NCBI GenBank assembly: GCA_022376925.1
Contig: JAIOJX010000025.1
Span: 143,365,301-143,429,300, forward strand
DNA: 64,000 bases
Source of the DNA: Tragulus kanchil
Taxonomy: Eukaryota > Chordata > Mammalia > Artiodactyla > Tragulidae
Direction of reading: 5' to 3'
Within the stretch, counting starts at the first letter, position 1. Each line of letters opens with the position of its first letter. Positions 466 to 59,758 of this stretch are shown in pieces. Below the pieces are notes generated by a model. The model had not been told where the DNA came from and made no database searches. It saw nothing but the letters and a program-made list of their open reading frames with translations. The translations under genes were made by a program, and so were the position numbers.

Positions 466-2704
466 TCACAAATAAGATGAGTTTTACCAGCTCTGGTATT
501 ATTGGGTTGATGCTATCTGATGGAGTTCTGGCAAGTGACATACAATTTCCCCTAGTATCTGAAAGTAGAGGTTTCCATGAAACCTCTTGTAAGTTGAAAC
601 AGTGTAAAGCAAAGAAACAATTACCTTAGGGCATATCCTGATCACATGCACAAAATAAACTAAGTATCAATGCTCACAGGCATTTTAGAATCATAACAGC
701 TTCATGGTGAGATGCTGAGTGTAGTTTCTGAGAAAGGAGCTTGGTGGTGCCACTCTCTGCTCCATGTGTGTACTTCCTCTATAATGGCTCATAGCAAAAA
801 AAATAAAATAAAACGCTGAATGCTACATTCACTTTTCACTTTTTCTGTTAGAAGTGAAAATCCTCTTTGGATTTCTTCAGGTTAGCAAAACAGATACTAA
901 TATCGGTCTTTTGGAAAGGCAAAGTGTCATGAAGCAAAGTTTCAAAAAGCAAGGGATATCTGAATTTGCAGGACATAGGGTATTTGGAAGCTGGAAGCTT
1001 GGTTCTAACACATTCTGTGTACGTCTTCTCCTCACTTTCTGTAGTTATACCAGAAAGCAAGTATTCGTGAAAGCAACATCATAGGATGGAAGGCACCTTG
1101 TGTTATACATGAGGATAGATCCTAAGGAAAACCACTATAGCTGCACTAGACACAAAGTAAACAACAAATCTATGTAGTCGTCATTCATAGAGATTTCAGT
1201 TCATTTGCTTGCAATATAAATGACCCTAATTGTGGCCCATAAAAATATGAAAAGAAATTGAGATAAATAGTGCTTTCAATGATAACATCTGTGAAAACAG
1301 AAGTAAACTTTGTTTTAGTTTAAAGTATTTTAAATTTCATTATATATAAACTTAAAGATAAAATTGACTTATTTATTAAGATAAATAATGTAAAAAAACT
1401 AAGCATAAGTAATTAGTTTCATGGGAAATAATACTTGAATGAAAGTGTAGAAAGAATTACTAAAGTTATTTTCCATTATAGAAATCAAGAAATACTAACA
1501 TTCTAAAGAATCTCAGTTTATATTAAGGTATTTTATATGTATAGACTTCACTCTGGTTTTAAATTATTAGAAAAATTCACTGAAAAGGTTTCACAAATAA
1601 GATGAGTTTTACCAGCTCTGGTATTATTGGGTTGATGCTATCTGATGGAGTTCTGGCAAGTGACATACAATTTCCCCTAGTATCTGAAAGTAGAGGTTTC
1701 CATGAAACCTCTTGTAAGTTGAAACAGTGTAAAGCAAAGAAACAATTACCTTAGGGCATATCCTGATCACATGCACAAAATAAACTAAGTATCAATGCTC
1801 ACAGGCATTTTAGAATCATAACAGCTTCATGGTGAGATGCTGAGTGTAGTTTCTGAGAAAGGAGCTTGGTGGTGCCACTCTCTGCTCCATGTGTGTACTT
1901 CCTCTATAATGGCTCATAGCAAAAAAAATAAAATAAAACGCTGAATGCTACATTCACTTTTCACTTTTTCTGTTAGAAGTGAAAATCCTCTTTGGATTTC
2001 TTCAGGTTAGCAAAACAGATACTAATATCGGTCTTTTGGAAAGGCAAAGTGTCATGAAGCAAAGTTTCAAAAAGCAAGGGATATCTGAATTTGCAGGACA
2101 TAGGGTATTTGGAAGCTGGAAGCTTGGTTCTAACACATTCTGTGTACGTCTTCTCCTCACTTTCTGTAGTTATACCAGAAAGCAAGTATTCGTGAAAGCA
2201 ACATCATAGGATGGAAGGCACCTTGTGTTATACATGAGGATAGATCCTAAGGAAAACCACTATAGCTGCACTAGACACAAAGTAAACAACAAATCTATGT
2301 AGTCGTCATTCATAGAGATTTCAGTTCATTTGCTTGCAATATAAATGACCCTAATTGTGGCCCATAAAAATATGAAAAGAAATTGAGATAAATAGTGCTT
2401 TCAATGATAACATCTGTGAAAACAGAAGTAAACTTTGTTTTAGTTTAAAGTATTTTAAATTTCATTATATATAAACTTAAAGATAAAATTGACTTATTTA
2501 TTAAGATAAATAATGTAAAAAAACTAAGCATAAGTAATTAGTTTCATGGGAAATAATACTTGAATGAAAGTGTAGAAAGAATTACTAAAGTTATTTTCCA
2601 TTATAGAAATCAAGAAATACTAACATTCTAAAGAATCTCAGTTTATATTAAGGTATTTTATATGTATAGACTTCACTCTGGTTTTAAATTATTAGAAAAA
2701 ATTC
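466..2704. repeat. Tandem duplication 1, period 1125 bp
   Basis: Copy 1 is about 466-1578 and copy 2 about 1591-2704, a constant offset of 1125. They are separated by 12 stray bases (1579-1590). I saw almost no substitutions between copies; the A-run near the end differs by one base (1571 versus 2696). The last 158 bases occur a third time from 3651. No transposon end or target-site duplication flanks the unit. Confidence 0.95.
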
Positions 2705-4754
2705 CTGAGCCTATCTGGTCACTGATAACTCAGAATTATTCTCTCTTCCCATTACTCTGTAAATCCTATCAAAAGTCCATTATGTACAGTTAGTCTTAAT
2801 ACAAATCTGATTTAAAAGAATATGTGATGAGTCTCTCAAACAAATTATAGTTGCTGGGCTTGGCTCAGTTTAGATTGAGTTCATAAACAAACATCTGAGT
2901 CTCACTCTGCACTGCAGGGTTCTGAATAATCTCACTCCCTCGTAACCCACTGTCTATAGTCTTTCCCTTCAGCTTTCTGCACATATGTATCTTCTGATTT
3001 CCAGCACTACTCATCACCTAAATCTCATTACAATTACTATTTATTGTTTCATTCATTTAAGAATATTCTTATATCCAAGTAACTGTAATATTTTTCACTT
3101 TAATAAAATGATATTTTTTATCTGTAGCTCTTTAAATTCTAAATTGTATTTACATCATTATGCTGAAAATATTTAATCTAGGATCATGTAAAGCCATTCC
3201 TGATAAATAGAAAATTTTAAACAATATCATCACAATTTGGGCATTGGAATTCACAGAGAAGTCTGCATGTGTGTATGTCAGGTAGTGTATACGTCAGTGC
3301 TATTCTCTCAGTTTGTCTCACCATTCTCCTTCACACCTTATGTTCACAAGTCAGTTTTCTCTGTTCTTTATGTCTGTGTGAAAACTTTTTTAAAAAAATA
3401 AAAAACCTATTCTGTGATTGACAAGGTGAAATGTTCATACTTAATATTTATTTCTACTTAAGTCTACTTAATATGCCCTGTACTTTACCATGCAGCTTTT
3501 TCAATGTCACCTCTAAATAATAGTGATAGTAATGTTGCTTGTGATATTCTTATATACAGCTAGATAATTTTCTTGAACATTTCTAGGTTTTAGTTATTGC
3601 ACTGGGAATTTTATGTGTATTATCTCACTTTCTGCCTAGAGTATTGTGTTATGGGAAATAATACTTGAATGAAAGTGTAGAAATAATTACTAAAGTTATT
3701 TTCCATTATAGAAATCAAGAAATACTAACATTCTAAAGAATCTCAGTTTATATTAAGGTATTTTATATGTATAGACTTCACTCTGGTTTTAAATTATTAG
3801 AAAAAATTCCTGAGCCTATCTGGTCACTGATAACTCAGAATTATTCTCTCTTCCCATTACTCTGTAAATCCTATCAAAAGTCCATTATGTACAGTTAGTC
3901 TTAATACAAATCTGATTTAAAAGAATATGTGATGAGTCTCTCAAACAAATTATAGTTGCTGGGCTTGGCTCAGTTTAGATTGAGTTCATAAACAAACATC
4001 TGAGTCTCACTCTGCACTGCAGGGTTCTGAATAATCTCACTCCCTCGTAACCCACTGTCTATAGTCTTTCCCTTCAGCTTTCTGCACATATGTATCTTCT
4101 GATTTCCAGCACTACTCATCACCTAAATCTCATTACAATTACTATTTATTGTTTCATTCATTTAAGAATATTCTTATATCCAAGTAACTGTAATATTTTT
4201 CACTTTAATAAAATGATATTTTTTATCTGTAGCTCTTTAAATTCTAAATTGTATTTACATCATTATGCTGAAAATATTTAATCTAGGATCATGTAAAGCC
4301 ATTCCTGATAAATAGAAAATTTTAAACAATATCATCACAATTTGGGCATTGGAATTCACAGAGAAGTCTGCATGTGTGTATGTCAGGTAGTGTATACGTC
4401 AGTGCTATTCTCTCAGTTTGTCTCACCATTCTCCTTCACACCTTATGTTCACAAGTCAGTTTTCTCTGTTCTTTATGTCTGTGTGAAAACTTTTTAAAAA
4501 ATAAAAACCTATTCTGTGATTGACAAGGTGAAATGTTCATACTTAATATTTATTTCTACTTAAGTCTACTTAATATGCCCTGTACTTTACCATGCAGCTT
4601 TTTCAATGTCACCTCTAAATAATAGTGATAGTAATGTTGCTTGTGATATTCTTATATACAGCTAGATAATTTTCTTGAACATTTCTAGGTTTTAGTTATT
4701 GCACTGGGAATTTTATGTGTATTATCTCACTTTCTGCCTAGAGTATTGTGTTAT
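2546..4754. repeat. Tandem duplication 2, period 1105 bp
   Basis: Copy 1 is 2546-3652 and copy 2 3651-4754. The junction at 3651 is seamless, sharing 'at'. Offset starts at 1105 and falls to 1102 because A/T runs near 3388 and 4491 differ in length. In the three-copy stretch the base at about 3684 is 't' (agaaataatt) while the other two copies have 'g' (agaaagaatt), so the odd base sits beside the junction. Confidence 0.95.
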
Positions 4755-4870
4755 AGACTAAGTTGTGCTCCCTCAGAATTCAGAGGCTGAAGTTTTAACT
4801 GCCAATAACTGTATTTTGAAATAAGACTTTTAAGAAGATAATTAAGGTTAAGTGGCTAATAAACCCCATC
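4755..4870. mobile_element. Possible MaLR-type LTR fragment
   Basis: The string 'gttgtgctccctcagaattc' followed by 'gaggctgaagttttaactgc' and a later 'gataattaaggttaa' resembles, in order, a diverged stretch found in mammalian ERVL-MaLR LTRs. The match is from memory and short, so the family call is tentative. No LTR end or polyadenylation signal can be fixed. Confidence 0.3.
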
Positions 4871-5210
4871 CTTGTGGTAACATATGAAGTGTAAAGAGGC
4901 AAATATGTCAACAAGTTTGGCATAAAAGTAGGAAAGAACTACAGAGGTATTACAAGAAAAATGCCACTTTTGAGTAAAAGCAATGCAGAATATGTTGGCA
5001 AGAGACGAATAAACAGTGAACAGGAAAAAACTGACAAGCCAGCTTAGGAAAGTCAAGTTTCCAGTTCTTAATGTATATAGCACTCCAGTCACAAGTATCC
5101 TCTGGTACAAAGGAGGCTCTAGGTTGATCTTTGTTGGTGTAAAAGACTATTATAATCCTCTTGTAAACAAGAGCCATCCTATTCTATGTTATTACTCTTT
5201 AACACAAAGA
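4871..5210. other. Unassigned single-copy stretch
   Basis: Not duplicated and no recognised repeat. Open frames on both strands (75-106 codons) overlap one another and run into the following SINE, so none is supported as a gene. Confidence 0.4.
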
Positions 5211-5244
5211 GTTAACGGAAATATTGAAATTAAGCTTTATCTTT

Positions 5245-5501
5245 TTGTGTGGTGGGGCAGGGAACTTCTATTGGTCTTTTATTTATCTATTTTCTGGCCT
5301 GCGTGGGCCTCCCATCACAGCGGCCTCTCTCGCTGAAGACCTCCTGCTCTGGGCGCATGCGCTCCAGAGCTCTGGCTCGGTAGTTGGACACATCTGTACA
5401 ACTGCTCCGTGGCATGTGGGATCCTCCCAGGCCAGGGATCGAACCAGCATCCGTTGCACTGCAAGATGGTGTCCTTACCCACTAGACCACCAGGGAAGCC
5501 C
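5245..5501 (-). mobile_element. CHR-like tRNA-Glu SINE, copy 1
   Basis: Read on the minus strand it begins 'gggcttccctggtggtct' and runs through 'ggttcgatccctggcctggg' (tRNA B-box region) and a GC-rich body ('ctctggagcgcatgcgccc') to an AT-rich tail. This is the layout of cetartiodactyl tRNA-Glu SINEs. Probable target-site duplication: 'aagctttatcttt' at 5232-5244 and 'aaactttaccttt' at 5502-5514. Peptides predicted across it are artefacts of the SINE. Confidence 0.8.
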
Positions 5502-5767
5502 AAACTTTACCTTTAAATATAAGATTCTTAGGCAAGGTTCACATTTCCAGTAATCTCTGTACTTAGAATTACTGTTTAGAAATTTATTTTCCCTAGAGAA
5601 AATTTCCTCAGTCATGTATGTCTTTAATATTTGAATTTGTTTTCTCATAGGTATCCCAATATCCATTTTTGTTTAAAATATTTCTTGTTTTCATTCATCA
5701 CTTAGACAATTACTTTTAAACATTGGGTCGATAGTACAGTTTCCATGGCTTCCAGAGTTTAGTTGTC

Positions 5768-5815
5768 ACCATTCTCCCATCACTAATTCTCCCATCACCA
5801 TTCTCCCATCACTAA
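5768..5815. repeat. Short tandem repeat, 'attctcccatcacta' type
   Basis: The phrase 'ccattctcccatcacta' is repeated about three times with one shortened unit. The same array recurs at 6848-6895 in copy 2 of duplication 3 with no length change, which fits a copied sequence rather than two independently evolving minisatellites. Confidence 0.7.
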
Positions 5816-6329
5816 TACAAGTCAGTATGTGTATATGTCAGGTAGTATCAATTAATTTGTCTTCATAATATCAAGATAACATAGGCTCAAATAACCTATT
5901 GTAAGCTATGTTCTAAATGAGGAGGAAAAAAATGTAAAACAAAATAGCTGTTTGTTGTTTAATGTCATTTTAAAAGGAGTTAGTGTAATTTTTGCAAAGA
6001 ACCATTATGAATATGCAGCTGTTATGAATTTACACATGGCCTTGGCTGGAGACCACCAAAGGGTCATATATGCGTGGATTCAGCCCGCCCAATTAGAAAC
6101 TATGTTCAGTTTATTTCAGACATCACAGCTGGATGCAAAGAACTAACAGGGAAATCTTTTGTGTCAAGATGTGCATTACCGTCAAAATTTTATTGTTTTG
6201 CATTCCATCTGTAGTATAGGCAACTACTAGAACATTCAGTGAAAATATGTGAGCTATAAAAAATGTTTTGGGACCCTTGATTATTGGCCATGCCGTTAAC
6301 GGAAATATTGAAATTAAGCTTTATCTTTT

Positions 6330-6581
6330 GTGTGGTGGGCAGGGAACTTCTATTGGTCTTTTATTTATCTATTTTCTGGCCTGCGTGGGCCTCCCATCAC
6401 AGCGGCCTCTCGCTGAAGACCTCCTGCTCTGGGCGCATGCGCTCCAGAGCTCTGGCTCGGTAGTTGGACACATCTGTACAACTGCTCCGTGGCATGTGGG
6501 ATCCTCCCAGGCCAGGGATCGAACCAGCATCCGTTGCACTGCAAGATGGTGTCCTTACCCACTAGACCACCAGGGAAGCCC
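6330..6581 (-). mobile_element. CHR-like tRNA-Glu SINE, copy 2 (from duplication 3)
   Basis: Same insertion as 5245-5501, including the same flanking target-site duplication (from 6316 and from 6582). It differs only by small indels near its 5' side on the plus strand. Because the flanks are shared it is one insertion seen twice, not two insertions. Confidence 0.8.
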
Positions 6582-7063
6582 AAACTTTACCTTTAAATAT
6601 AAGATTCTTAGGCAAGGTTCACATTTCCAGTAATCTCTGTACTTAGAATTACTGTTTAGAAATTTATTTTCCCTAGAGAAAATTTCCTCAGTCATGTATG
6701 TCTTTAATATTTGAATTTGTTTTCTCATAGGTATCCCAATATCCATTTTTGTTTAAAATATTTCTTGTTTTCATTCATCACTTAGACAATTACTTTTAAA
6801 CATTGGGTCGATAGTACAGTTTCCATGGCTTCCAGAGTTTAGTTGTCACCATTCTCCCATCACTAATTCTCCCATCACCATTCTCCCATCACTAATACAA
6901 GTCAGTATGTGTATATGTCAGGTAGTATCAATTAATTTGTCTTCATAATATCAAGATAACATAGGCTCAAATAACCTATTGTAAGCTATGTTCTAAATGA
7001 GGAGGAAAAAAATGTAAAACAAAATAGCTGTTTGTTGTTTAATGTCATTTTAAAAGGAGTTAG

Positions 7064-9226
7064 TGTAATTTTTGCAAAGAACCATTATGAATATGCAGCT
7101 GTTATGAATTTACACATGGCCTTGGCTGGAGACCACCAAAGGGTCATATATGCGTGGATTCAGCCCGCCCAATTAGAAACTATGTTCAGTTTATTTCAGA
7201 CATCACAGCTGGATGCAAAGAACTAACAGGGAAATCTTTTGTGTCAAGATGTGCATTACCGTCAAAATTTTATTGTTTTGCATTCCATCTGTAGTATAGG
7301 CAACTACTAGAACATTCAGTGAAAATATGTGAGCTATAGCAGAAAGTGGAGGCACATGGCTATAGTACAGCTGCAGGGGAAACATGGCTGGATCTCATTT
7401 CTGTATTTAGTCTTCTTTTCTATACCCACTATTTCAAAGTGTGTCACTACCAACTCAATTCATATCTGTTGACCAGTAAATATAATTACACATTTGATCA
7501 TCAAATTAGAAAGTAAATTAACTTTTAATGGGTAGCATTATTCATTATACCCTGGAAAAAAATTAAAATCTTTACTAAAATGCATGTCTCACTCCAAATT
7601 TGTGTCTTGTTAAATGGGTATTTTTGACCCAGATAATCCTTTAGTTGCGAAGGAATGCAGAAATTGATGCATACTATGAATCATTGTCTAAAATAAAACG
7701 AGAAAAATATTACATAATTAACTCCATATGGCTTTTCCTTTGACTCAATGATACAGGCCAAATTCACATACTTTTCTCAATTAAGAATCTTGAAACAAAT
7801 TCTACTTAAAGCACTTATGAAAGTAATCTTGCATATTCAATAAAATAATATATAGAAATGGGTAGTTAAGAACATTCTGTAAATAATTAATACTCATTTG
7901 TTAGTTGATAATTTATCTAGAAAGTCAAAAATAGAGTTAATAATATTTCAAGTGCCATATTAAAAATAAGAGTTCTATAATATTTAGCATATCGATGGAA
8001 CACAATGCAAATTTTCAGAGTTTTAACATTATCTTATATTTTAAAGGTATGTCAGTTAACTTATTAAAATTATCTAAAAATTAGATGACACTTATTTTAA
8101 ATATACATGAGACTTTAGATGTGTTTGGTTTAATTCTAGTTCTAGAATGTAATTTTGCAAAGAACCATTATGAATATGCAGTGAGATTTACACATGGCCT
8201 TGGCTGGAGACCACCAAAGGGTCATATATGCGTGGATTCAGCCCGCCCAATTAGAAACTATGTTCAGTTTATTTCAGACATCACAGCTGGATGCAAAGAA
8301 CTAACAGGGAAATCTTTTGTGTCAAGATGTGCATTACCGTCAAAATTTTATTGTTTTGCATTCCATCTGTAGTATAGGCAACTACTAGAACATTCAGTGA
8401 AAATATGTGAGCTATAGCAGAAAGTGGAGGCACATGGCTATAGTACAGCTGCAGGGGAAACATGGCTGGATCTCATTTCTGTATTTAGTCTTCTTTTCTA
8501 TACCCACTATTTCAAAGTGTGTCACTACCAACTCAATTCATATCTGTTGACCAGTAAATATAATTACACATTTGATCATCAAATTAGAAAGTAAATTAAC
8601 TTTTAATGGGTAGCATTATTCATTATACCCTGGAAAAAAATTAAAATCTTTACTAAAATGCATGTCTCACTCCAAATTTGTGTCTTGTTAAATGGGTATT
8701 TTTGACCCAGATAATCCTTTAGTTGCGAAGGAATGCAGAAATTGATGCATACTATGAATCATTGTCTAAAATAAAACGAGAAAAATATTACATAATTAAC
8801 TCCATATGGCTTTTCCTTTGACTCAATGATACAGGCCAAATTCACATACTTTTCTCAATTAAGAATCTTGAAACAAATTCTACTTAAAGCACTTATGAAA
8901 GTAATCTTGCATATTCAATAAAATAATATATAGAAATGGGTAGTTAAGAACATTCTGTAAATAATTAATACTCATTTGTTAGTTGATAATTTATCTAGAA
9001 AGTCAAAAATAGAGTTAATAATATTTCAAGTGCCATATTAAAAATAAGAGTTCTATAATATTTAGCATATCGATGGAACACAATGCAAATTTTCAGAGTT
9101 TTAACATTATCTTATATTTTAAAGGTATGTCAGTTAACTTATTAAAATTATCTAAAAATTAGATGACACTTATTTTAAATATACATGAGACTGAAAATGA
9201 GATGTGTTTGGTTTAATTCTAGTTCT
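7064..9226. repeat. Tandem duplication 4, period 1078 bp
   Basis: Copy 1 is about 7064-8145, copy 2 about 8148-9226. Copy 2 starts with local errors: after 'gaatatgcag' it reads 'tgagattt' where the other two copies (6012, 7092) read 'ctgttatgaattt'. Near the far end copy 1 has 'gactttagatgtg' but copy 2 has 'gactgaaaatgagatgtg' (about 9190). Disagreements again lie next to a junction. Confidence 0.93.
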
Positions 9227-11165: not shown

Positions 11166-14120
11166 TTCCCTGTATCATCATCATCTTCTTTTCTACCTTA
11201 TCAGCCAGCAGATGCATTTCAGGATTATGTTTTCAACTAACTTTAGTTTTACCTTATTACGTTAGCTCCATTCATATGCAGTAGCTCCAAGTGAGTCATC
11301 ATAACTGATTTATAAAGAAAATAATAGACTTTCATTTTCCTGTCCAGAGTGTAAAGAACTTGGATGTCATCACTCCATCACAAGATGAAGTAAAAATTTG
11401 AAAACAAAATGAAAAACTTAAAAATCAGCACTTCCTATATCCATCTGAGGAGCTTTCTCACAGGGTTACTGTCCCCCAAATTGGAGAGAAAAATAGGTAA
11501 ATACAGAGTCCCAACCTACCAGAAAATAAACCCACTAGCATCAACATTTGGGATAACCAGTGCCAAAGTAGGAAAATGCACACTGTAACTGACAAATTGC
11601 TAGAGGCTCAATGTGGACAATTCTGAAAGTTAAAATCTCTAGAAGTAATGAGTCTTGTGTGGGCTGGGGGCAGGGGTGGGGCTCTACACTCATCTGAGAT
11701 TTACCTCTAGGATCTCTCCCAAATTCTTTGGGTGGAGATTGGGGGGAAAAAATCCACTTATGGTTCCAGCAGTAGATGAGGAAAAGTAACTATTTGAAAT
11801 TCACCAGGGCATGCCATTCCTCTAACAAAACCTGCCCTCAAAGAGAAACTGTTTTGCCACAACCTACTGGAGTTTTATCAAAGTTTAACTGAACATAGAG
11901 AAAAAAGAATTACCTAATTCCAGTTTCCTCTAAGCAATCCAATCCACCTAATGATGGGGGTGGAGGAGGAAGGGCAAGTCAGGGAGCAAATATAGAGTAC
12001 TTATGAGGGCCACATGCAAGTTGTAGAGGCTTGAAAGACTAAAATCTAAGAATAGGAATATATACTGATTCCCTTTCCCCCATACCTGAACACTGTTGCT
12101 AAAGGGCTATTTGCTGAGTTTCTTTTATTGAATGCATCATCTCTGACTTTCAACAAAAATTACAAGCACGCTAAAAGTCAAAAATCAAAGTTTAAAGAGA
12201 CAGTGCAAACATTAAAACCAAACACAGGTATAACAGGTATTTAAAAATAGTCAGAACAATATTTTAAGCAATTGTTATTAATGTGCTAAAAAGGCCTTAA
12301 TGGAAAAAAAAAGTAGCCAACATGCAAAAACAGATGGGTAACATAAGCAGAAAGATGGAAATTCTAAGAAAGAATCAAATAGGGAGGCTAGAGATTAAAA
12401 AGAAAAGAATACCACAAGGTTTTATCTAATATGGTAGTCATAGAAATAATTAAGACAGTGCTTTTGTAAAGTAAGTTAAAACAGTATTTCAAGCATACCT
12501 TGATAAGTTACATTTGAGAACAAAGAACTAATTAATAAAATTATTTAATTTTAATTAAATTGTTAAAATTTAAAATCATTTGAAGCTTTCTCACATAGTC
12601 CAAAAAAAAACACCCTACCAGAAAATAAACCCACTAGCATCAACATTTGGGATAACCAGTGCCAAAGTAGGAAAATGCACACTGTAACTGACAAATTGCT
12701 AGAGGCTCAATGTGGACAATTCTGAAAGTTAAAATCTCTAGAAGTAATGAGTCTTGTGTGGGCTGGGGGCAGGGGTGGGGCTCTACACTCATCTGAGATT
12801 TACCTCTAGGATCTCTCCCAAATTCTTTGGGTGGAGATTGGGGGGAAAAAATCCACTTATGGTTCCAGCAGTAGATGAGGAAAAGTAACTATTTGAAATT
12901 CACCAGGGCATGCCATTCCTCTAACAAAACCTGCCCTCAAAGAGAAACTGTTTTGCCACAACCTACTGGAGTTTTATCAAAGTTTAACTGAACATAGAGA
13001 AAAAAGAATTACCTAATTCCAGTTTCCTCTAAGCAATCCAATCCACCTAATGATGGGGGTGGAGGAGGAAGGGCAAGTCAGGGAGCAAATATAGAGTACT
13101 TATGAGGGCCACATGCAAGTTGTAGAGGCTTGAAAGACTAAAATCTAAGAATAGGAATATATACTGATTCCCTTTCCCCCATACCTGAACACTGTTGCTA
13201 AAGGGCTATTTGCTGAGTTTCTTTTATTGAATGCATCATCTCTGACTTTCAACAAAAATTACAAGCACGCTAAAAGTCAAAAATCAAAGTTTAAAGAGAC
13301 AGTGCAAACATTAAAACCAAACACAGGTATAACAGGTATTTAAAAATAGTCAGAACAATATTTTAAGCAATTGTTATTAATGTGCTAAAAAGGCCTTAAT
13401 GGAAAAAAAAAGTAGCCAACATGCAAAAACAGATGGGTAACATAAGCAGAAAGATGGAAATTCTAAGAAAGAATCAAATAGGGAGGCTAGAGATTAAAAA
13501 GAAAAGAATACCACAAGGTTTTATCTAATATGGTAGTCATAGAAATAATTAAGACAGTGCTTTTGTAAAGTAAGTTAAAACAGTATTTCAAGCATACCTT
13601 GATAAGTTACATTTGAGAACAAAGAACTAATTAATAAAATTATTTAATTTTAATTAAATTGTTAAAATTTAAAATCATTTAAGTGTCAAATTACCAGATT
13701 CTGAGAATATAACTGAAACATGCTTGAAATTGAAGGAAATAGTAAGAATTTATAAAGTTGCAATAGTTAATGCAATAACAACTTTTGAACAGTTGCAAAA
13801 TGATTGTAAACTGTGTCATAATTATTCACCATATATCCTAACCAAAATTATAGGTTAGATTTCCAGAGTTAATGCTAATGTGTCAGAATATATAAGCCTT
13901 TTATGTGCAGAATTTACAACTTAAGGAAAGATGTTATTGTAGATAAAATAGAAGGAACTGAAACATGAGGAAAGTATGATCCAGTTAAAAAAATAAAACA
14001 TGAAAAAGTTTGATTACAATTGTTTCAGTAAAATATTTTCTTTCATAGAACACAAGACATGAAATAAACTCATCTCTAAACAGTGATGAAGTTTCTGCCC
14101 AGTGTCATTATATAAGGATT
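11166..14120. other. Unassigned AT-rich DNA within duplication 5
   Basis: No gene or recognised repeat family. There is a mixed purine segment ('ggggtggaggaggaagggc' near 11952) but no long simple repeat. No open frame of note is present. Confidence 0.45.
11515..13680. repeat. Tandem duplication 5, period 1099 bp
   Basis: Copy 1 is 11515-12581, copy 2 12614-13680, and the offset is exactly 1099 throughout. The 32 bases between (12582-12613) start 'gaagctttctcaca' and look like a shortened, corrupted version of 11449-11514 ('gagctttctcaca' ... 'aacctacc'). That is what a poor-quality sequence end just upstream of copy 2 would give. Confidence 0.95.
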
Positions 14121-15426: not shown

Positions 15427-15549
15427 GGGACTTCCCTCACAGTCCAGTGATTAAGACTCTGTACTCCAGTGCAGTGGGGGTGCAGTTTCAATCCCCTGTT
15501 GGGAACTCAGATTCCATGTCCTGTCCAGTGCAGCCAAAACACGGCCAAG
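15427..15549 (+). mobile_element. Short CHR-like tRNA SINE, copy 1
   Basis: Starts 'gggacttccctcacagtcca', has 'gattaagactctgtactcc', then 'gtttcaatcccctgttggg' (B box-like) and ends 'cagccaaaacacggccaag'. This is the short tRNA-only form of the cetartiodactyl CHR SINE family. No clear target-site duplication seen. Repeated at 16526 by duplication 6. Confidence 0.75.
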
Positions 15550-30816: not shown

Positions 30817-30825
30817 CTCATTTTC

Positions 30826-42349: not shown

Positions 42350-42362
42350 TGCTTGATTAATC

Positions 42363-48240: not shown

Positions 48241-48317
48241 ACCAAGTACATGATCCGTAGATTTGTAAAGGTTTCGATTCCAAACCCAAGTGAGGGTAAG
48301 CTCTGCCTGCTCTGTGG

Positions 48318-48517
48318 CTCAGGTTTGTCCATGTCCGACTATCTGTGACCCCATGGTGTAGCATGCCAGGCTCCTCTATCCGTGGAATTTTCCCAGGCAA
48401 AAATACTCGAGTGGATTGAAGTTTCCTCCTCCAGGGGATCGTCTTAACCCAGAGACAGAACCCATGTCTCTTGCATTGGCAGGGAGATTTTTTACCACTG
48501 AGCCACTTGAGAAGCTT
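48318..48517 (-). mobile_element. Bov-tA SINE, copy 1
   Basis: Complement: 'catgtccgactatctgtgac', 'gcatgccaggctcctctatc', 'ttttcccaggcaaaaatact', 'ctccaggggatcgtcttaac', 'catgtctcttgcattggcag', 'tttttaccactgagccactt'. Near full length. Confidence 0.85.
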
Positions 48518-49415
48518 GAGGATAAGCTAGTGACTTAAAAAATTTCATGAGAGTTTTGCTGTTACTATTGTTGTCACTGTTGCAATTGTTTCTGCCGTTT
48601 CAAATTTCACCTTTATCTCCATCCAAAGCTAGTACAAGATGAAAAGAACCATTTATCTGCTTATACTGAGTAAGTTTCCTTCTGACTCACTTTTTTTTTC
48701 CTCATACTGTGGCATTTTCAGAATCATAATTTTATATGTTTGGAGAAGGGGGAGACTTTTATCTAGCTTGTCGTCCTCAGGGTTAGGATAGTTTAGCCAC
48801 AGTCACATCCAAAAAGCTTATTCTTTGGAAGCTGTTAAGCTACTTGATTCTAAATATGTACTCCAAAAGTACCAAGGTTCATCATCACCTCATCTCCTTG
48901 AAGTAACATCTATAGTTAGTTCTAATCTTCTAAGTGATCCCCTTTTTAGGTGTAATCACTAATTATTTTAAAATATGTGTTCTAATAGTTCTATATATTT
49001 TATGATGGTGGATATCTAGAAATTATATTTCTGGAAAATGAATTTCCTTCCCTTTTTTCCTCTCTTATAAAATTATACTTCAAATGTATAGTCCAAAAAA
49101 AAAAAAAAAACGGTAGTCCTTCTGTGTCTTTTTAAGTCCACTTAAACTCTCTCAACTCTTGGTTGTTCCCAAGACATTTAGCACATTCCTAAATTTTAGT
49201 AACTAGTAACCAAGTGTGGGAAATAAATGTGTTATAAAAGATAAAAAAGAGAAGAATCTCAAATCACTAAAAGTGTTGTATGACCGAGTTGAAGCTGCAG
49301 TTCATTTGTTCAGGTACTATCAGCAAAGTGAGAAAAGACACAAGTACATGATCCGTAGATTTGTAAAGGTTTCGATTCCAAACCCAAGTGAGGGTAAGCT
49401 CTGCCTGCTCTGTGG

Positions 49416-49614
49416 CTCAGGTTTGTCCATGTCCGACTATCTGTGACCCCATGGTGTAGCATGCCAGGCTCCTCTATCCGTGGAATTTTCCCAGGCAAAA
49501 ATACTCGAGTGGATTGAAGTTTCCTCCTCCAGGGGATCGTCTTAACCCAGAGACAGAACCCATGTCTCTTGCATTGGCAGGGAGATTTTTTACCACTGAG
49601 CCACTTGAGAAGCT
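49416..49614 (-). mobile_element. Bov-tA SINE, copy 2 (from duplication 19)
   Basis: Second image of 48318-48517 at offset 1098. Confidence 0.85.
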
Positions 49615-50214
49615 TGAGGATAAGCTAGTGACTTAAAAAATTTCATGAGAGTTTTGCTGTTACTATTGTTGTCACTGTTGCAATTGTTTCTGCCGTTTCA
49701 AATTTCACCTTTATCTCCATCCAAAGCTAGTACAAGATGAAAAGAACCATTTATCTGCTTATACTGAGTAAGTTTCCTTCTGACTCACTTTTTTTTTTCC
49801 TCATACTGTGGCATTTTCAGAATCATAATTTTATATGTTTGGAGAAGGGGGAGACTTTTATCTAGCTTGTCGTCCTCAGGGTTAGGATAGTTTAGCCACA
49901 GTCACATCCAAAAAGCTTATTCTTTGGAAGCTGTTAAGCTACTTGATTCTAAATATGTACTCCAAAAGTACCAAGGTTCATCATCACCTCATCTCCTTGA
50001 AGTAACATCTATAGTTAGTTCTAATCTTCTAAGTGATCCCCTTTTTAGGTGTAATCACTAATTATTTTAAAATATGTGTTCTAATAGTTCTATATATTTT
50101 ATGATGGTGGATATCTAGAAATTATATTTCTGGAAAATGAATTTCCTTCCCTTTTTTCCTCTCTTATAAAATTATACTTCAAATGTATAGTCCAAAAAAA
50201 AAAAAAAACGGTAG

Positions 50215-53200
50215 TCCTTCTGTGTCTTTTTAAGTCCACTTAAACTCTCTCAACTCTTGGTTGTTCCCAAGACATTTAGCACATTCCTAAATTTTAGTAA
50301 CTAGTAACCAAGTGTGGGAAATAAATGTGTTATAAAAGATAAAAAAGAGAGAAGAATCTCAAATCACTAAAAGTGTTGTATGACCGAGTTGAAGCTGCAG
50401 TTCATTTGTTCAGGTACTATCAGCAAAGTGAGAAAAAGACACAATCAGGGTAGTCAATAATGAAGACCAAATAATAAGCTTTTCTAAACTTTATTATTAG
50501 TCAACTAGATCCAAAAACAGTTTATGAATCTGGCATAAACATAAATTCAAAATTTTATTAATTGTTGAAATAGTTTTTAAAATATAAATTTTGAGGAGCA
50601 ATGTTTTAACTTTTGACTAGTGTTAGGATTTCAAAAAGAATTCAGCCATTTAGAAATACACTGGGTAGAAAATCCCTCATCTTGATCTCAAGAGGAGAAA
50701 GAATTTTTGTCTAATATTATGCTTAAAACTTTACAGAGAATATTTTATAAACTAAAATTAAGTGGTCTCGCTTAAATGTGAGATAGTTGGAGAATACTAA
50801 TTATCAAATCCAAATTATCAAAATCTTCCTTTTGGTCCAAATATAAAGTCAAAAACATATGAGAATCTAAGAGGAAACATCTATTAAATAATCAAGGGAG
50901 TGTTTAACCTCATTAGCCCAAAATGAAACATAAATGTTGAGCTGAATCTCTGTCAGCATAAATGCACATCTAAAAATATATTTGAGAAATGGATAGTGAA
51001 AATATTTTAAAGGCATAATAATGAAAAAAATTTGCCATGAATTGAAAATAAAATAATGGCTATTATGCTTATTAGTTTGAGAAATATTTATATTAAAAAC
51101 GTGTTACATATGTGCTATTCTCTTTTGGCTACATAATCTTGCCTCTTTGTAAATAACTTTCTATTCCACAAACAACCTGTGCCTGGCTTTATCTTCCAAG
51201 TCAAACCCATGATATTAATATTTTCTATTTACCTGTTTATTTACTTTGCCAGTTTTACACTGAACGAGGACATGAACTTTATTTATGTAGTTTGCTGCCA
51301 TAAGTTTGGACTTGGCAGAAAGTCTAACATAAAACAGTTTGCACTGAAGATATTAAACTAAACTAATTTTATGTAGGTTAGGCAAGTGAAGAATAAAAAA
51401 CAACTGCAGGAGTACAGGTGAAGGGTATTTTTTCTGAGTCTGCTCTAGCAAGGGAGTCAGCCACTATTGCTTGCATTTTGAGAGAATCTCAAAGATAGGC
51501 AAAGGAAGAGGAAAGGAAAGTTTCATGGTAGAAAAGAGGGAAGGCTTCAAGCATGCCCTGATTGGAGGCTCTTGGCATGGGGAAACTGTACACAGGCTTA
51601 CTGGAAGGGTGTATCCTATACATTTGGGTAGGTGTGCTTATTTAGCTTTCTTGATTTGTATTAAAATGGAAACAGGACAAATATTAAGAAAGCAACCAAC
51701 TACTAGTCAAGTTCTGGTCACATGGGGCCAATTATTACAGGGGTTATTGCTTGTCTATATAGACTGTTCTTTAGAGATAGTGGTCTGATTTCCAGTGAGC
51801 CTGACTTACAGAGAGTGAGATGGCTTCCTGTACTGGTTACTATAGAGAATGAGTTGGTTTCCCGGGCAGTTTCCTACCAATTGTAGGTCAGAGTCCTATT
51901 TTTATCTATGATCTGGCCATCATCTGTTTCTATACCTAGTCTCTCACAAGCACCTAATTGAGAACATAGAGAGTTTAACAGCTACTTTTTTGGTCCAAAT
52001 ATAAAGTCAAAAACATATGAGAATCTAAGAGGAAACATCTATTAAATAATCAAGGGAGTGTTTAACCTCATTAGCCCAAAATGAAACATAAATGTTGAGC
52101 TGAATCTCTGTCAGCATAAATGCACATCTAAAAATATATTTGAGAAATGGATAGTGAAAATATTTTAAAGGCATAATAATGAAAAAAATTTGCCATGAAT
52201 TGAAAATAAAATAATGGCTATTATGCTTATTAGTTTGAGAAATATTTATATTAAAAACGTGTTACATATGTGCTATTCTCTTTTGGCTACATAATCTTGC
52301 CTCTTTGTAAATAACTTTCTATTCCACAAACAACCTGTGCCTGGCTTTATCTTCCAAGTCAAACCCATGATATTAATATTTTCTATTTACCTGTTTATTT
52401 ACTTTGCCAGTTTTACACTGAACGAGGACATGAACTTTATTTATGTAGTTTGCTGCCATAAGTTTGGACTTGGCAGAAAGTCTAACATAAAACAGTTTGC
52501 ACTGAAGATATTAAACTAAACTAATTTTATGTAGGTTAGGCAAGTGAAGAATAAAAAACAACTGCAGGAGTACAGGTGAAGGGTATTTTTTCTGAGTCTG
52601 CTCTAGCAAGGGAGTCAGCCACTATTGCTTGCATTTTGAGAGAATCTCAAAGATAGGCAAAGGAAGAGGAAAGGAAAGTTTCATGGTAGAAAAGAGGGAA
52701 GGCTTCAAGCATGCCCTGATTGGAGGCTCTTGGCATGGGGAAACTGTACACAGGCTTACTGGAAGGGTGTATCCTATACATTTGGGTAGGTGTGCTTATT
52801 TAGCTTTCTTGATTTGTATTAAAATGGAAACAGGACAAATATTAAGAAAGCAACCAACTACTAGTCAAGTTCTGGTCACATGGGGCCAATTATTACAGGG
52901 GTTATTGCTTGTCTATATAGACTGTTCTTTAGAGATAGTGGTCTGATTTCCAGTGAGCCTGACTTACAGAGAGTGAGATGGCTTCCTGTACTGGTTACTA
53001 TAGAGAATGAGTTGGTTTCCCGGGCAGTTTCCTACCAATTGTAGGTCAGAGTCCTATTTTTATCTATGATCTGGCCATCATCTGTTTCTATACCTAGTCT
53101 CTCACAAGCACCTAATTGAGAACATAGAGAGTTTAACAGCTATTGTCCTGATACATAATACATTACCCAAAAAGAAGCTTTTCAAAAAAGTTATATTGAT

Positions 53201-54520
53201 TAAAATTTTAAAAAGAGGCATAAAAGTAAAGCATAGAATTCCTCAGTGACAAATATTTGATCTAACTTCAGTCCCAATAGACAAGTGATTTCAAAATTCT
53301 ACTTTGGAAATAAAAGTATATATATAAAAAAATGCTACTTTGGACCTTTACACGATCATAAATCTTCAAAAACTTCTAAAAGTAGACCAGAATAGGTAAG
53401 TTTCAGATATAAAAATGGGAACAGTAACTATAACTGAGAGGATAAAAAGATACTGGACTGATATTCATTTGTGCTAAACTAGATATTAAAACATAGAATA
53501 AGCCTTGATATGAAATACACTAGTTTATTATGAATCACTGGTAAGTGGTTCAGATAACTTTATCACACTCTAGGACAGCAAGAAAGCTGGTTTAGCACAG
53601 TGTTTTGTGATTACCAGACCACAGAGGTCTGCTTGGAAAATGCTGTTTCGATTATTCTTATGTTTGGAAACCAGTGAAGCAAGAAAACCTTTTTCATAAA
53701 AGCCTACATTTGGTCTGTGTGTCACAAATAGTTTAAAAATTAACATGTAAATTGTATTAAAATAAAAAGCATCTAGCTAAGAAGAGGTGGCTTGATAACA
53801 ATGGTCATGGAAGTCCTAAAACCCTTCCCTTATCAATATTACAGTATAAACAATTCTTGACAGAAATAATTTCGTTACTTAAAGTAATTTCATCTCTATA
53901 GAAAAACAATTAGCAAATTTTAAATAGAATTTCATTTCACCCAATTTTCAGAGAAAAAAAAATTAAACTTTGCCTTGATTGTAGTTTATATTCCTATAAT
54001 ATATATGGAATTTAAATCTCAAGAGGCAGTAATAATGATCTCGCCAGAAAATCCGAAATGCATTTGCCTAACCAGAAATAAAACAGGAAAATGTGTTTAA
54101 ATGCACCCTACTTATCTTGATTTATTTTCTTTTCCCTTGAGATGTGGCTCTTCAGTTCATGCTAACTCAAGTCTTCCGAGAATGTCCCAGCATGGAATTA
54201 TTTTTCAGGAACACTCTTCTCTGCAACACTAAATCATACATACTTTTCCTAAGACTTTCCCTTATCAAAACATACAAACTGTCCCAGTTAATTCTTTCAG
54301 TGGTTATTTTGTTAATATTATTCAAATTTAGGAAGGGAACATTTTTAGGGACAAACATAATTCAAGATGTTGGCATCATAGTAAGAACAAACAAAATCTC
54401 TGCTGTCCTGGAATCTGATAATCATTTGAGCTACTTATCACTGATTCGTAATAAGCCAATATATTCCATGTCAGAATTTATCAGTATGTTTTTAAGGTGC
54501 ACTTGTAATTAGTATAATAT
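50215..54520. other. Unassigned AT-rich DNA within duplications 19 to 21
   Basis: No repeat family recognised. Two open frames drew attention and were rejected: 51471-51788 (105 codons, again at 52629) and 54144-54512 (122 codons from a GTG, again at 55307). Neither shows a domain, and their second copies come from duplication. Confidence 0.4.
50826..53142. repeat. Tandem duplication 20, period 1158 bp
   Basis: Copy 1 is about 50826-51983, copy 2 51984-53142. Join: 'gtttaacagcta' then 'cttttttggtcc' where copy 1 begins 'cttccttttggtcc', so the first bases of copy 2 are slightly altered. Otherwise no differences noticed over 1.15 kb. Confidence 0.95.
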
Positions 54521-55811
54521 TTATCAACTTTATACAATGTGCCTGTTACTTTATTAGGTGCTTTGAAAAATTATCTCATTTATTGTTTGTATATGGAAGA
54601 ATAGTAATCTCCATTTAGGAGATGATAAAACTGCATGTCTAAAGGTTATTAAAACATAGAATAAGCCTTGATATGAAATACACTAGTTTATTATGAATCA
54701 CTGGTAAGTGGTTCAGATAACTTTATCACACTCTAGGACAGCAAGAAAGCTGGTTTAGCACAGTGTTTTGTGATTACCAGACCACAGAGGTCTGCTTGGA
54801 AAATGCTGTTTCGATTATTCTTATGTTTGGAAACCAGTGAAGCAAGAAAACCTTTTTCATAAAAGCCTACATTTGGTCTGTGTGTCACAAATAGTTTAAA
54901 AATTAACATGTAAATTGTATTAAAATAAAAAGCATCTAGCTAAGAAGAGGTGGCTTGATAACAATGGTCATGGAAGTCCTAAAACCCTTCCCTTATCAAT
55001 ATTACAGTATAAACAATTCTTGACAGAAATAATTTCGTTACTTAAAGTAATTTCATCTCTATAGAAAAACAATTAGCAAATTTTAAATAGAATTTCATTT
55101 CACCCAATTTTCAGAGAAAAAAAAATTAAACTTTGCCTTGATTGTAGTTTATATTCCTATAATATATATGGAATTTAAATCTCAAGAGGCAGTAATAATG
55201 ATCTCGCCAGAAAATCCGAAATGCATTTGCCTAACCAGAAATAAAACAGGAAAATGTGTTTAAATGCACCCTACTTATCTTGATTTATTTTCTTTTCCCT
55301 TGAGATGTGGCTCTTCAGTTCATGCTAACTCAAGTCTTCCGAGAATGTCCCAGCATGGAATTATTTTTCAGGAACACTCTTCTCTGCAACACTAAATCAT
55401 ACATACTTTTCCTAAGACTTTCCCTTATCAAAACATACAAACTGTCCCAGTTAATTCTTTCAGTGGTTATTTTGTTAATATTATTCAAATTTAGGAAGGG
55501 AACATTTTTAGGGACAAACATAATTCAAGATGTTGGCATCATAGTAAGAACAAACAAAATCTCTGCTGTCCTGGAATCTGATAATCATTTGAGCTACTTA
55601 TCACTGATTCGTAATAAGCCAATATATTCCATGTCAGAATTTATCAGTATGTTTTTAAGGTGCACTTGTAATTAGTATAATATTTATCAACTTTATACAA
55701 TGTGCCTGTTACTTTATTAGGTGCTTTGAAAAATTATCTCATTTATTGTTTGTATATGGAAGAATAGTAATCTCCATTTAGGAGATGATAAAACTGCATG
55801 TCTAAAGGTTA
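53485..55811. repeat. Tandem duplication 21, period 1163 bp
   Basis: Copy 1 is 53485-54648, copy 2 54648-55811. Seamless join: 'ctaaaggtta' to 'ttaaaacatag', inside the MIR-like element. No differences noticed. Confidence 0.95.
54525..54648 (-). mobile_element. MIR-like fragment, copy 1, cut by junction
   Basis: 'ttatacaatgtgcctgttac', 'aaaaattatctcatttattg', 'agtaatctccatttaggaga', 'tgataaaactgcatgtct': complement of MIR, broken at the duplication 21 join. Confidence 0.55.
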
Positions 55812-55912
55812 ATTGCTTTGTTAAAGGTTGTACAGGCAGTAGCAGTAAAACTGTTACTCAGTCCAGTTCTTTTCTGATCTTCTGATTCTAAAGTCAACAT
55901 TCTTCGTGCCCT
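55690..55912 (-). mobile_element. MIR-like fragment, copy 2, complete
   Basis: Complete version: continues past the cut with 'gttaaaggttgtacaggcag', 'agtaaaactgttactcagtc', 'cttctgattctaaagtcaac'. This follows the reverse of MIR core and tRNA region. Confidence 0.6.
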
Positions 55913-56810
55913 CCCTACTGGCTTGTGCTGTGACACAGCAAAGTGAGAGAGCTAATGAAGTTCAAAATGGCCTGGAACGAAAGTACTGAGAATAGAACTA
56001 TACTTCCTCCTATCTTCAAATAAATCTCATTTCTTTCTAGATATGGTTGAAACTCTAAACACTCTAATATGTAAACATCCATTTTTACTTGTTTGGAAAC
56101 TGAACCTAGAAAGTTATGAGTCTTTCTCAAGTTCCAAAAGCTACTATCCACGCAGATGCAAAACTAGGTTTCTGTTCTCCCGACACACTTTGCTCTGAAA
56201 GGCACAAGGTCATAATGAAATCATACCTGTGGAAGGATGATTCTCATTTTAGGAAGAAGTATGCCTGTGTCAATGTAAATGCTCATTTTTGATATAATGC
56301 CCTCTAAATTAACAAAAGTGTGTTGGGCTGTTAGATCCAGGGGCAATTCATGAGCCTTGATAAATATTTTCTTAAGTGCTTGCTTATACAATACATTTAC
56401 TAATGACCATTTACATGTTTAAATGCTCACACCCCAGAGAATTCCTGGAGAAGCAGCAGAAGAAGGTCCAAAAACTTAAATGCAGTGACTAAAAACAAAG
56501 ATGTTATTTCACTATTTACTAAACAAATGCTTCAATGTAAGCAACTTTACAATATAAAAAAGGAAGGTGTCCTTAGGTCAAGTATAAGATGAGGCAGTTA
56601 ATATTATTCAAATTTAGGAAGGAACATTTTAGGGACAAACATAATTCAAGATGTTGGCATCATAGTAAGAACAAACAAAATCTCTGCTGTCCTGGAATCT
56701 GATAATCATTTGAGCTACTTATCACTGATTCGTAATAAGCCAATATATTCCATGTCAGAATTTATCAGTATGTTTTTAAGGTGCACTTGTAATTAGTATA
56801 ATATTTATCA

Positions 56811-57033
56811 ACTTTATACAATGTGCCTGTTACTTTATTAGGTGCTTTGAAAAATTATCTCATTTATTGTTTGTATATGGAAGAATAGTAATCTCCATTT
56901 AGGAGATGATAAAACTGCATGTCTAAAGGTTAATTGCTTTGTTAAAGGTTGTACAGGCAGTAGCAGTAAAACTGTTACTCAGTCCAGTTCTTTTCTGATC
57001 TTCTGATTCTAAAGTCAACATTCTTCGTGCCCT
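56811..57033 (-). mobile_element. MIR-like fragment, copy 3 (from duplication 22)
   Basis: Third image of the same element at offset 1121 from 55690. Confidence 0.6.
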
Positions 57034-58220
57034 CCCTACTGGCTTGTGCTGTGACACAGCAAAGTGAGAGAGCTAATGAAGTTCAAAATGGCCTGGAACG
57101 AAAGTACTGAGAATAGAACTATACTTCCTCCTATCTTCAAATAAATCTCATTTCTTTCTAGATATGGTTGAAACTCTAAACACTCTAATATGTAAACATC
57201 CATTTTTACTTGTTTGGAAACTGAACCTAGAAAGTTATGAGTCTTTCTCAAGTTCCAAAAGCTACTATCCACGCAGATGCAAAACTAGGTTTCTGTTCTC
57301 CCGACACACTTTGCTCTGAAAGGCACAAGGTCATAATGAAATCATACCTGTGGAAGGATGATTCTCATTTTAGGAAGAAGTATGCCTGTGTCAATGTAAA
57401 TGCTCATTTTTGATATAATGCCCTCTAAATTAACAAAAGTGTGTTGGGCTGTTAGATCCAGGGGCAATTCATGAGCCTTGATAAATATTTTCTTAAGTGC
57501 TTGCTTATACAATACATTTACTAATGACCATTTACATGTTTAAATGCTCACACCCCAGAGAATTCCTGGAGAAGCAGCAGAAGAAGGTCCAAAAACTTAA
57601 ATGCAGTGACTAAAAACAAAGATGTTATTTCACTATTTACTAAACAAATGCTTCAATGTAAGCAACTTTACAATATAAAAAAGGAAGGTGTCCTTAGGTC
57701 AAGTATAAGATGAGGCAGCAAGCTTTCTGTTTAGCATTAATCAAAAGATTCCTTAATATTCAATAAAACATTTCCCCTTTTGTTATATTTAGTATTTTAA
57801 TAAGGGATTAATGATCAAAATTAAATTACTTTAAGGTTGGTTAAGCAGAGGTACTTAATAAGAGTAAATTTTGCTCTTGGTAGAAGGATAATAAATGCAA
57901 AATTATATCACTTGTCATAGTGCAGTTTCAAAAAGGTGATTGAATTTTTCATGATGACAATCCTCAATGTCATCTCCATAGAGAATCATTAAAAATATAT
58001 CATTATTATTTCCTGTAGTAGCCTATATGTACTGTGTCTACATGATGCCAAAGAACTTTGAAATGTGAAAAGTTTAGTAGAGTTTTTAGTCTCTAAATTT
58101 CAAATAATTGGTATTAATCACAATTTTTTTTGTTTAACCAAGGTGAAGAATGATACCATCCTGGTCACATTTAACATAAACATAAGATATTTATACTCTT
58201 GGCAAATAAAGTCCCATGCA
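57034..58220. other. Unassigned DNA within duplications 22 and 23
   Basis: No gene or repeat family recognised; a 78-codon minus-strand open frame (57036-57272, also 55915) has no domain. Confidence 0.4.
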
Positions 58221-58255
58221 GTATATATGTATGTGTGTGTATATATATATATATG

Positions 58256-58286
<31 letters not shown>

Positions 58287-58288
58287 AT
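58221..58288. repeat. Compound (TA)n(TG)n microsatellite, copy 1
   Basis: 'gtatatatgtatgtgtgtgt', then about six TA units, 'tgtatatatatgtg' and a (TG)n run. The second copy at 59361-59426 is two bases shorter in the TA part. Low-complexity peptides predicted across it are meaningless. Confidence 0.9.
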
Positions 58289-58368
58289 CCCATAAATATC
58301 TATGTTCTGGTACTTTTCCCCAGTATGATACTTCTGACTATATTTACTAATGCTCATAGTATATAATA

Positions 58369-58496
58369 TGTGCTTACTTGCTCTGTCATGGCTGAATCTT
58401 TGCGACCCTATGAACTGCAGCCCACAGGTGTCTCTGGACCTCCATGTTAGTTTTCAGGCAAGGATACTGGAGTGGGTTGCTATTTCCTCCTCTAGT
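58369..58496 (-). mobile_element. Truncated Bov-tA/Bov-A fragment, copy 1
   Basis: Complement of a Bov-A body: 'gtgcttacttgctctgtcat', 'tttgcgaccctatgaactgc', 'caggcaaggatactggagtg', 'ggttgctatttcctcctct'. tRNA-like head absent. Confidence 0.75.
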
Positions 58497-59360
58497 ATAT
58501 GATATGAAGTCACTGTAAAATAACATTATCATTTTGTGACCACTGAGATTAAATTAGTAAATAAGCCTTTAATTAGGGCTATTTGTAGCAGTTAGGGATG
58601 CATTTACTTAAAAATAATAGAAAAACATAACACAATTAGCTTGCTTGTACAATACATTTACTAATGACCATTTACATGTTTAAATGCTCACACCCCAGAG
58701 AATTCCTGGAGAAGCAGCAGAAGAAGGTCCAAAAACTTAAATGCAGTGACTAAAAACAAAGATGTTATTTCACTATTTACTAAACAAATGCTTCAATGTA
58801 AGCAACTTTACAATATAAAAAAGGAAGGTGTCCTTAGGTCAAGTATAAGATGAGGCAGCAAGCTTTCTGTTTAGCATTAATCAAAAGATTCCTTAATATT
58901 CAATAAAACATTTCCCCTTTTGTTATATTTAGTATTTTAATAAGGGATTAATGATCAAAATTAAATTACTTTAAGGTTGGTTAAGCAGAGGTACTTAATA
59001 AGAGTAAATTTTGCTCTTGGTAGAAGGATAATAAATGCAAAATTATATCACTTGTCATAGTGCAGTTTCAAAAAGGTGATTGAATTTTTCATGATGACAA
59101 TCCTCAATGTCATCTCCATAGAGAATCATTAAAAATATATCATTATTATTTCCTGTAGTAGCCTATATGTACTGTGTCTACATGATGCCAAAGAACTTTG
59201 AAATGTGAAAAGTTTAGTAGAGTTTTTAGTCTCTAAATTTCAAATAATTGGTATTAATCACAATTTTTTTTGTTTAACCAAGGTGAAGAATGATACCATC
59301 CTGGTCACATTTAACATAAACATAAGATATTTATACTCTTGGCAAATAAAGTCCCATGCA

Positions 59361-59393
59361 GTATATATGTATGTGTGTGTATATATATATATG

Positions 59394-59424
<31 letters not shown>

Positions 59425-59426
59425 AT
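59361..59426. repeat. Compound (TA)n(TG)n microsatellite, copy 2
   Basis: Second image of 58221-58288, one TA unit shorter. Confidence 0.9.
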
Positions 59427-59507
59427 CCCATAAATATCTATGTTCTGGTACTTTTCCCCAGTATGATACTTCTGACTATATTTACTAATGCTCATAGTAT
59501 ATAATAT

Positions 59508-59634
59508 GTGCTTACTTGCTCTGTCATGGCTGAATCTTTGCGACCCTATGAACTGCAGCCCACAGGTGTCTCTGGACCTCCATGTGATTTTTCAGGCAAG
59601 AATACTGGAGTGGGTTGCTATTTCCTCCTCTAGT
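59508..59634 (-). mobile_element. Truncated Bov-tA/Bov-A fragment, copy 2 (from duplication 23)
   Basis: Second image of 58369-58496 with several differences near 59586-59602; this copy ('caagaatactggagtggg') is closer to the usual Bov-A sequence. Confidence 0.75.
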
Positions 59635-59758
59635 ATATGATATGAAGTCACTGTAAAATAACATTATCATTTTGTGACCACTGAGATTAAATTAGTAAAT
59701 AAGCCTTTAATTAGGGCTATTTGTAGCAGTTAGGGATGCATTTACTTAAAAATAATAG

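Follow-up and report, generated by a model that had tools for sequence, protein, structure and literature searches.

Introduction

In the accessible parts of the reports that describe them, homotype false duplications often lie at contig boundaries and are about as long as a read (PMC8081667, PMC9516828), and for three earlier assemblies Ko et al. 2022 measured a share of 0.4–2.7% (PMC9516828). The assembler wtdbg2 (Redbean) is described, in the available excerpt, as chopping reads into 1024-bp segments and merging similar segments into a vertex (PMC10989838). Assemblies made with wtdbg2 have been screened for artificial duplications at pairs >100 kb (PMC13251582), a screen that, going by the portion of that paper at hand, would miss pairs of ~1.1 kb. 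Here we analyze a stretch of 64,000 bp without any N from the Tragulus kanchil assembly GCA_022376925.1 (contig JAIOJX010000025.1, in the following C8; C8:143365301–143429300), referred to as the window, which carries a ladder of direct duplications with a period near 1.1 kb. Pairs of the same kind were found in stretches sampled from the rest of the assembly. All of these pairs are almost certainly an assembly artefact, in which consensus pieces overlapping by ~1.1 kb were set end to end unmerged. In a partial search of the literature, covering parts of the sources, precisely this failure was not described.

Results

The duplication ladder of the window

The window was compared with itself by BLAST on both strands, unmasked, at an identity of at least 80% and E 1e-20. 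This resulted in 37 rows, every one of them same-strand. Twenty-three rows were adjacent direct pairs at 466–59759, with copies 98.9–100% identical and offsets of 1080–1177 bp, ten were two-period rows of 128–338 bp where copy B of one pair overlaps copy A of the next, and four were weak rows of ~80% identity from an interspersed repeat. The initial annotation had listed 23 direct duplications of nearly identical copies at 466–59758 and suggested a self dot-plot as a check. The self-BLAST served as this check and confirmed the ladder; all 23 pairs were recovered, the last one ending at 59759, and the listed offsets deviate from ours by at most 6 bp, owing to indels. Copies A and B abut, with −13 to +84 bp between them, and the outer flanks of the pairs are continuous. 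The pairs are the following:

466–2708, plus strand: pair 1, A 466–1583, B 1591–2708, offset 1125
2533–4754, plus strand: pair 2, A 2533–3652, B 3640–4754, offset 1107
5211–7338, plus strand: pair 3, A 5211–6258, B 6295–7338, offset 1084
7064–9226, plus strand: pair 4, A 7064–8143, B 8148–9226, offset 1084
11512–13683, plus strand: pair 5, A 11512–12585, B 12611–13683, offset 1099
14596–16739, plus strand: pair 6, A 14596–15639, B 15699–16739, offset 1103
17620–19771, plus strand: pair 7, A 17620–18689, B 18700–19771, offset 1080
20114–22425, plus strand: pair 8, A 20114–21254, B 21291–22425, offset 1177
22175–24342, plus strand: pair 9, A 22175–23229, B 23286–24342, offset 1111
24039–26248, plus strand: pair 10, A 24039–25145, B 25140–26248, offset 1101
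25938–28050, plus strand: pair 11, A 25938–26951, B 27036–28050, offset 1098
29556–31746, plus strand: pair 12, A 29556–30641, B 30661–31746, offset 1105
33561–35750, plus strand: pair 13, A 33561–34653, B 34657–35750, offset 1096
35623–37826, plus strand: pair 14, A 35623–36725, B 36725–37826, offset 1102
38269–40456, plus strand: pair 15, A 38269–39361, B 39363–40456, offset 1094
40154–42349, plus strand: pair 16, A 40154–41242, B 41262–42349, offset 1108
42356–44665, plus strand: pair 17, A 42356–43513, B 43507–44665, offset 1151
44419–46725, plus strand: pair 18, A 44419–45572, B 45571–46725, offset 1152
48243–50444, plus strand: pair 19, A 48243–49343, B 49341–50444, offset 1098
50830–53142, plus strand: pair 20, A 50830–51984, B 51988–53142, offset 1158, copies identical
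53484–55811, plus strand: pair 21, A 53484–54648, B 54647–55811, offset 1163, copies identical
55474–57718, plus strand: pair 22, A 55474–56597, B 56597–57718, offset 1123
57499–59759, plus strand: pair 23, A 57499–58621, B 58639–59759, offset 1140

An extra pair lies across the left edge of the window (locus L003, C8:143362714–143366242), so the ladder starts before 466; loci L001–L004 are the window's own place in the assembly.

1–529, plus strand: tail of copy B of the pair straddling the left edge; copy A lies left of the window at C8:143363654–143364742 (in L003, 941–2029 and 2029–3116, 99.9% identity)

The pieces between junctions measure 1851–4453 bp in the window. A comparison of all 253 pairs of units revealed 31-mers common to ten pairs of neighbours (92–307 each) and six 31-mers common to units 12 and 14, while zero were common to the remaining unit pairs. 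Since sequence is shared only in these cases, the contents of the units are new each time, as the initial annotation had also noted. Its estimate of about 38.4 kb after removal of one copy of each pair is close to the computed value; the offsets total 25,659, leaving 38,341 of the 64,000 bp. The regular period would be accounted for by a satellite or a transposon family built on a unit of 1.1 kb, but no unit sequence is common between sites beyond the overlap of neighbours and the six 31-mers of units 12 and 14. Tandem Repeats Finder (longest period 500) returned 12 rows of short arrays, ten of which have counterparts in copies A and B of one pair. An origin in such a family can practically be dismissed.

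Distribution of the pairs in the assembly

The assembly comprises 3,167,203,957 bases in 32 contigs. Twenty stretches of 10 kb were requested at round positions where the sequence had not been seen, of which 11 were obtained (nine contigs were too short), and four further stretches of 10 kb were taken from four more contigs known to be long. The sample thereby consists of 15 stretches from 15 contigs, or 150 kb, with one stretch on C8 distant from the window. Pairs were present in all of the first 11 stretches and in all of the four added ones (15/15), with 40 junctions in the 150 kb. The 31 full-length pairs of the sampled stretches had a median offset of 1099 and a range of 994–1184. Extra sequence amounted to 29.5% (95% range 23–36%, from the spread between the 15 stretches), implying a collapsed genome size of 2.03–2.43 Gb.

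Matches to the first 2000 bases of the window at distal positions in the genome gave a second estimate. Thirty-seven matches were listed, with 40 of 593 candidates scored. Among the matches listed, 18 form nine same-strand pairs with a spacing of 1067–1181 bp, no further two matches are less than 10 kb apart, and the extra share is 9/37, or 24.3%. The ladder of pairs is genome-wide as far as sampled and not local. The fault that the initial annotation described for this region extends beyond it, as all 15 sampled stretches contain pairs.

Differences between the copies

The copies were aligned for 54 full-length pairs, 23 from the window and 31 from the sampled stretches. Only offsets of 950–1250 were taken and pairs cut by an edge were excluded; a node-spacing value of 579 stems from a pair in L013 that is cut by the stretch edge and is to be disregarded. 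Within 100 bp of either end the difference rate was 14.1/kb, compared to 1.20/kb inside, and 153 of the 210 differences were located in the first and last deciles. The end differences were also polarised. A deletion in the first 100 bp was found 48 times in copy B and 12 times in copy A, while a deletion in the last 100 bp was found 37 times in copy A and 6 times in copy B (Fisher p = 1.3e-4 for the window alone and 2.7e-8 for the stretches alone). As a rule, the damaged copy is the one ending there, and its indels are losses. This polarity holds for 85 of 103 end indels, and for the net balance of 31 of the pairs.

If copies A and B were parental alleles left unmerged and written in tandem (heterotype false duplication), the internal substitutions between them, 29 in 46 pairs, could be allelic. 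Haplotype bubbles would, however, vary in length and not alternate every 2–4 kb at one fixed length, and two of the 23 window pairs are identical. The crowding of differences into the first and last tenth, with end indels that are mostly deletions in the copy ending there, is likewise at odds with alleles. The copy differences behave like consensus error rather than allelic variation (polarised end deletions, p = 2.2e-11 for all pairs), and we consider unmerged haplotypes very improbable.

Real tandem duplications, made by a mutational process that copies ~1.1 kb in place at very many sites, would give abutting copies of the same orientation that are nearly identical, and would leave the outer flanks continuous, as observed. 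Such duplications predict a symmetric divergence along the copies, whereas the divergence found here is end-concentrated and depends on the copy. The offsets of the 54 pairs, taken at 950–1250, are confined to 994–1184, repeats of at least 100 bp and at least 94% identity at offsets other than one or two periods were absent from the window and L009–L019, and no off-period repeat was among the matches listed for L020–L023. With 15 of 15 stretches affected, the process would have added about 0.8–0.9 Gb, and a process that duplicates a constant 1.1 kb at unrelated sites throughout a genome is not known to us. The polarity of the ends argues for an artefact because duplicates made in a cell cannot "know" which of them ends where, while overlapping consensus pieces can. 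Polarised differences that crowd at the ends are not predicted by biological duplication and point to the ragged ends of overlapping consensus pieces, which do predict them. A biological origin of the pairs is thus extremely improbable.

Filler between the copies

A filler of 10–85 bp was found between the copies in 24 of the 54 pairs. In nine of these 24, the filler (at least 10 bp) scored the outside flanks of its own pair above the flanks of all other pairs, where about one is expected; the margin was narrow for three of the nine. Two fillers of the window illustrate the relation to either flank:

15640–15698, plus strand: filler of pair 6; its last 30 bases are an exact repeat of sequence 103–133 bases past copy B
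26952–27035, plus strand: filler of pair 11; the final 23 bases imperfectly repeat sequence to the left of copy A

In L018, ~70 bases of the filler at 6754–6836 match the sequence 30–101 bases past copy B. In the flank-matching fillers the first piece appears to have continued beyond the sequence common to both pieces, with a deletion nearby. Such overshoot, present in some of the pairs, would be consistent with under-collapse.

Other features of the window and the assembly

Copy A of pair 10 stops (25134–25145) inside an element, which we take to be like a short interspersed element (SINE), while copy B runs through (26237). An exact 41-base pattern from this element has two occurrences in the whole assembly, one of them here. 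Text and frames that are presumably SINE-like were also seen, e.g., at 38493–40148. An open frame of 141 codons is located on the minus strand at 62307–62732. It presumably resembles the C-terminal part of the protein of the ruminant long interspersed element BovB, and a Pfam scan of this frame gave no match. Together with the SINE-like text and frames, this open frame is the chief reason for regarding the animal as a likely ruminant. An Rfam scan of the window gave no match at gathering scores.

Contrary to the window, L009 and L019 contain 394 and 45 N, respectively, i.e., gaps or withheld bases are found elsewhere in the assembly. A few contigs are very large (C2 297, C3 294, C15 292, and C23 249 Mb), and ten of 0.2–1.5 Mb were seen besides. 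This pattern suggests a species with few chromosomes, although the artefact has likely made the contigs appear larger than they are. C14 has exactly 200,000 bases and C16 exactly 242,000 bases, and these round sizes look like fragments from a scaffolding program.

Discussion

The ladder is almost certainly not a real biological feature but matters as a property of the assembly. The initial annotation had proposed that consecutive contigs or reads overlapping by about 1.1 kb were concatenated instead of merged. Concatenation of unmerged overlaps is supported by the uniform overlap, the unrelated contents, the polarised end differences, and the flank-like filler in 9 of 24 cases. The nature of the pieces can be refined; with a length of 1.85–4.45 kb here, they are less likely to be contigs or reads than consensus sequences of single edges in an assembly graph. 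Each piece would close with the sequence that opens the following piece. Consensus quality would fall at the ends of a piece, with bases lost there, so that the damaged copy at the left end of a pair would be B, which has its head there, and at the right end A, which has its tail there. The animal itself would then lack these duplications.

With regard to the program, we infer that a source of the wtdbg2 type is probable within this explanation. In such a layout, the 1024-bp segments cut from reads would become graph vertices, with neighbouring edges having one vertex in common. wtdbg2 makes a separate consensus for each edge prior to joining, and neighbouring edges are normally merged. Here each edge may have been given its own consensus while the joining of adjacent edge consensuses failed, and since adjacent edges have a common vertex, every join that stayed unmerged would produce one duplicate of vertex length. 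The common unit is near-constant (1110 ± 35 bp in the 54 pairs) but 8% longer than 1024 bp. Unmerged vertices predict pieces that vary in length and are no shorter than about two units minus a small overlap, in agreement with the 1851–4453 bp of the window, where units overlap by 128–338 bp. The same class of artefact could arise from polishing, gap-filling or tiling in overlapping windows, or from the consensus stage of another assembler, if the chunks were left untrimmed. The evidence for concatenated overlaps says nothing about the program, and the mean overlap is 1110 and not 1024. Fixed windows would, on the other hand, produce chunks of constant length, whereas here the pieces vary more than twofold and it is the overlap that is near-constant; edges of differing length that share a vertex of defined size are a better fit. 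We regard such another source as rather unlikely.

Several observations weigh against the reading of the pairs as unmerged consensus overlaps, or against a wtdbg2-type source. The polarity is opposite in 18 of the 103 end indels, and in net terms eight pairs are opposite and 15 tied. Fifteen of the 24 fillers match their own flanks no better than all others, and no pair was found in the four short loci L005–L008 (3.2–3.4 kb each). Ruminant genomes are typically 2.5–2.8 Gb in size, compared to which the collapsed size of 2.03–2.43 Gb is low. wtdbg2 caps the overlap of neighbouring nodes at 256 raw bases; the overlaps between units, 128–338 bp in the window and up to 424 bp in L010, reach beyond this maximum. 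Finally, the mean offset is 8% over 1024. A loss of bases in raw reads, of the kind that the end errors show here, would account for this excess. Homopolymer-driven loss predicts a correlation between unit length and homopolymer content, and the two were uncorrelated (Spearman 0.01); there was also no significant correlation of the offset with GC or with dinucleotide runs. Given the lack of these correlations, a unit length that is fixed in raw-read space could not be demonstrated directly.

It is likely that about 0.77–0.93 Gb of the 3.17 Gb assembly is false (24.3% of the repeat matches listed and 29.5% by stretch sampling). Exons, repeats, and spacings taken from this assembly are likely miscounted, studies of tandem duplication and copy number would be overwhelmed, and for much of the assembly the mapping of reads would be ambiguous. 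The polarised end damage provides a test that needs the assembly only, and no reads, for distinguishing unmerged overlaps from true duplications. It is conceivable, although we would not count on it, that a little-recognised failure of edge consensus leaves a "vertex ladder", i.e., a vertex-length echo every few kb in gap-free chromosomes, and that other assemblies made likewise carry it. If so, neither gap counts nor scaffold N50 nor a duplicate filter restricted to long pairs would reveal the vertex ladder, and a one-line self-offset test at 1.0–1.2 kb would detect the other affected assemblies.

Three described systems resemble the ladder in part. The negative-gap duplications of optical-map scaffolding that are removed by BisCoT are, in the accessible part of the report, also artefactual tandem duplicates, made when neighbours that overlap are put next to each other (PMC8389630). 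They arise in the optical-map scaffolding of contigs (PMC8389630, same part), whereas the pairs found here lie within N-free sequence. Homotype false duplications are likewise one locus written twice, with the overlap unrecognised or uncollapsed, with sequencing errors as the cause, and with copies unequal in consensus quality, according to the sections available of Rhie et al. 2021 (PMC8081667) and of PMC9516828. Adjacent near-identical copies of one locus, by which that class is recognised, were found both in the window and in the sampled stretches; unlike that class, the copies here have a fixed length of ~1.1 kb, recur every few kb in gap-free sequence, and make up an estimated 24–30% of the assembly. 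The ladder differs from the normal output of wtdbg2, where neighbouring edges are merged and here would be unmerged, and from its vertex length, as the unit is ~8% over 1024 bp. It is alike to the fuzzy Bruijn graph of wtdbg2 with its consensus step wtpoa-cns in that, in the excerpts available, vertices of a fixed 1024 bp are joined by edges, and the edge sequences are laid out and made into consensus (PMC10989838, PMC12037172, PMC8434745).

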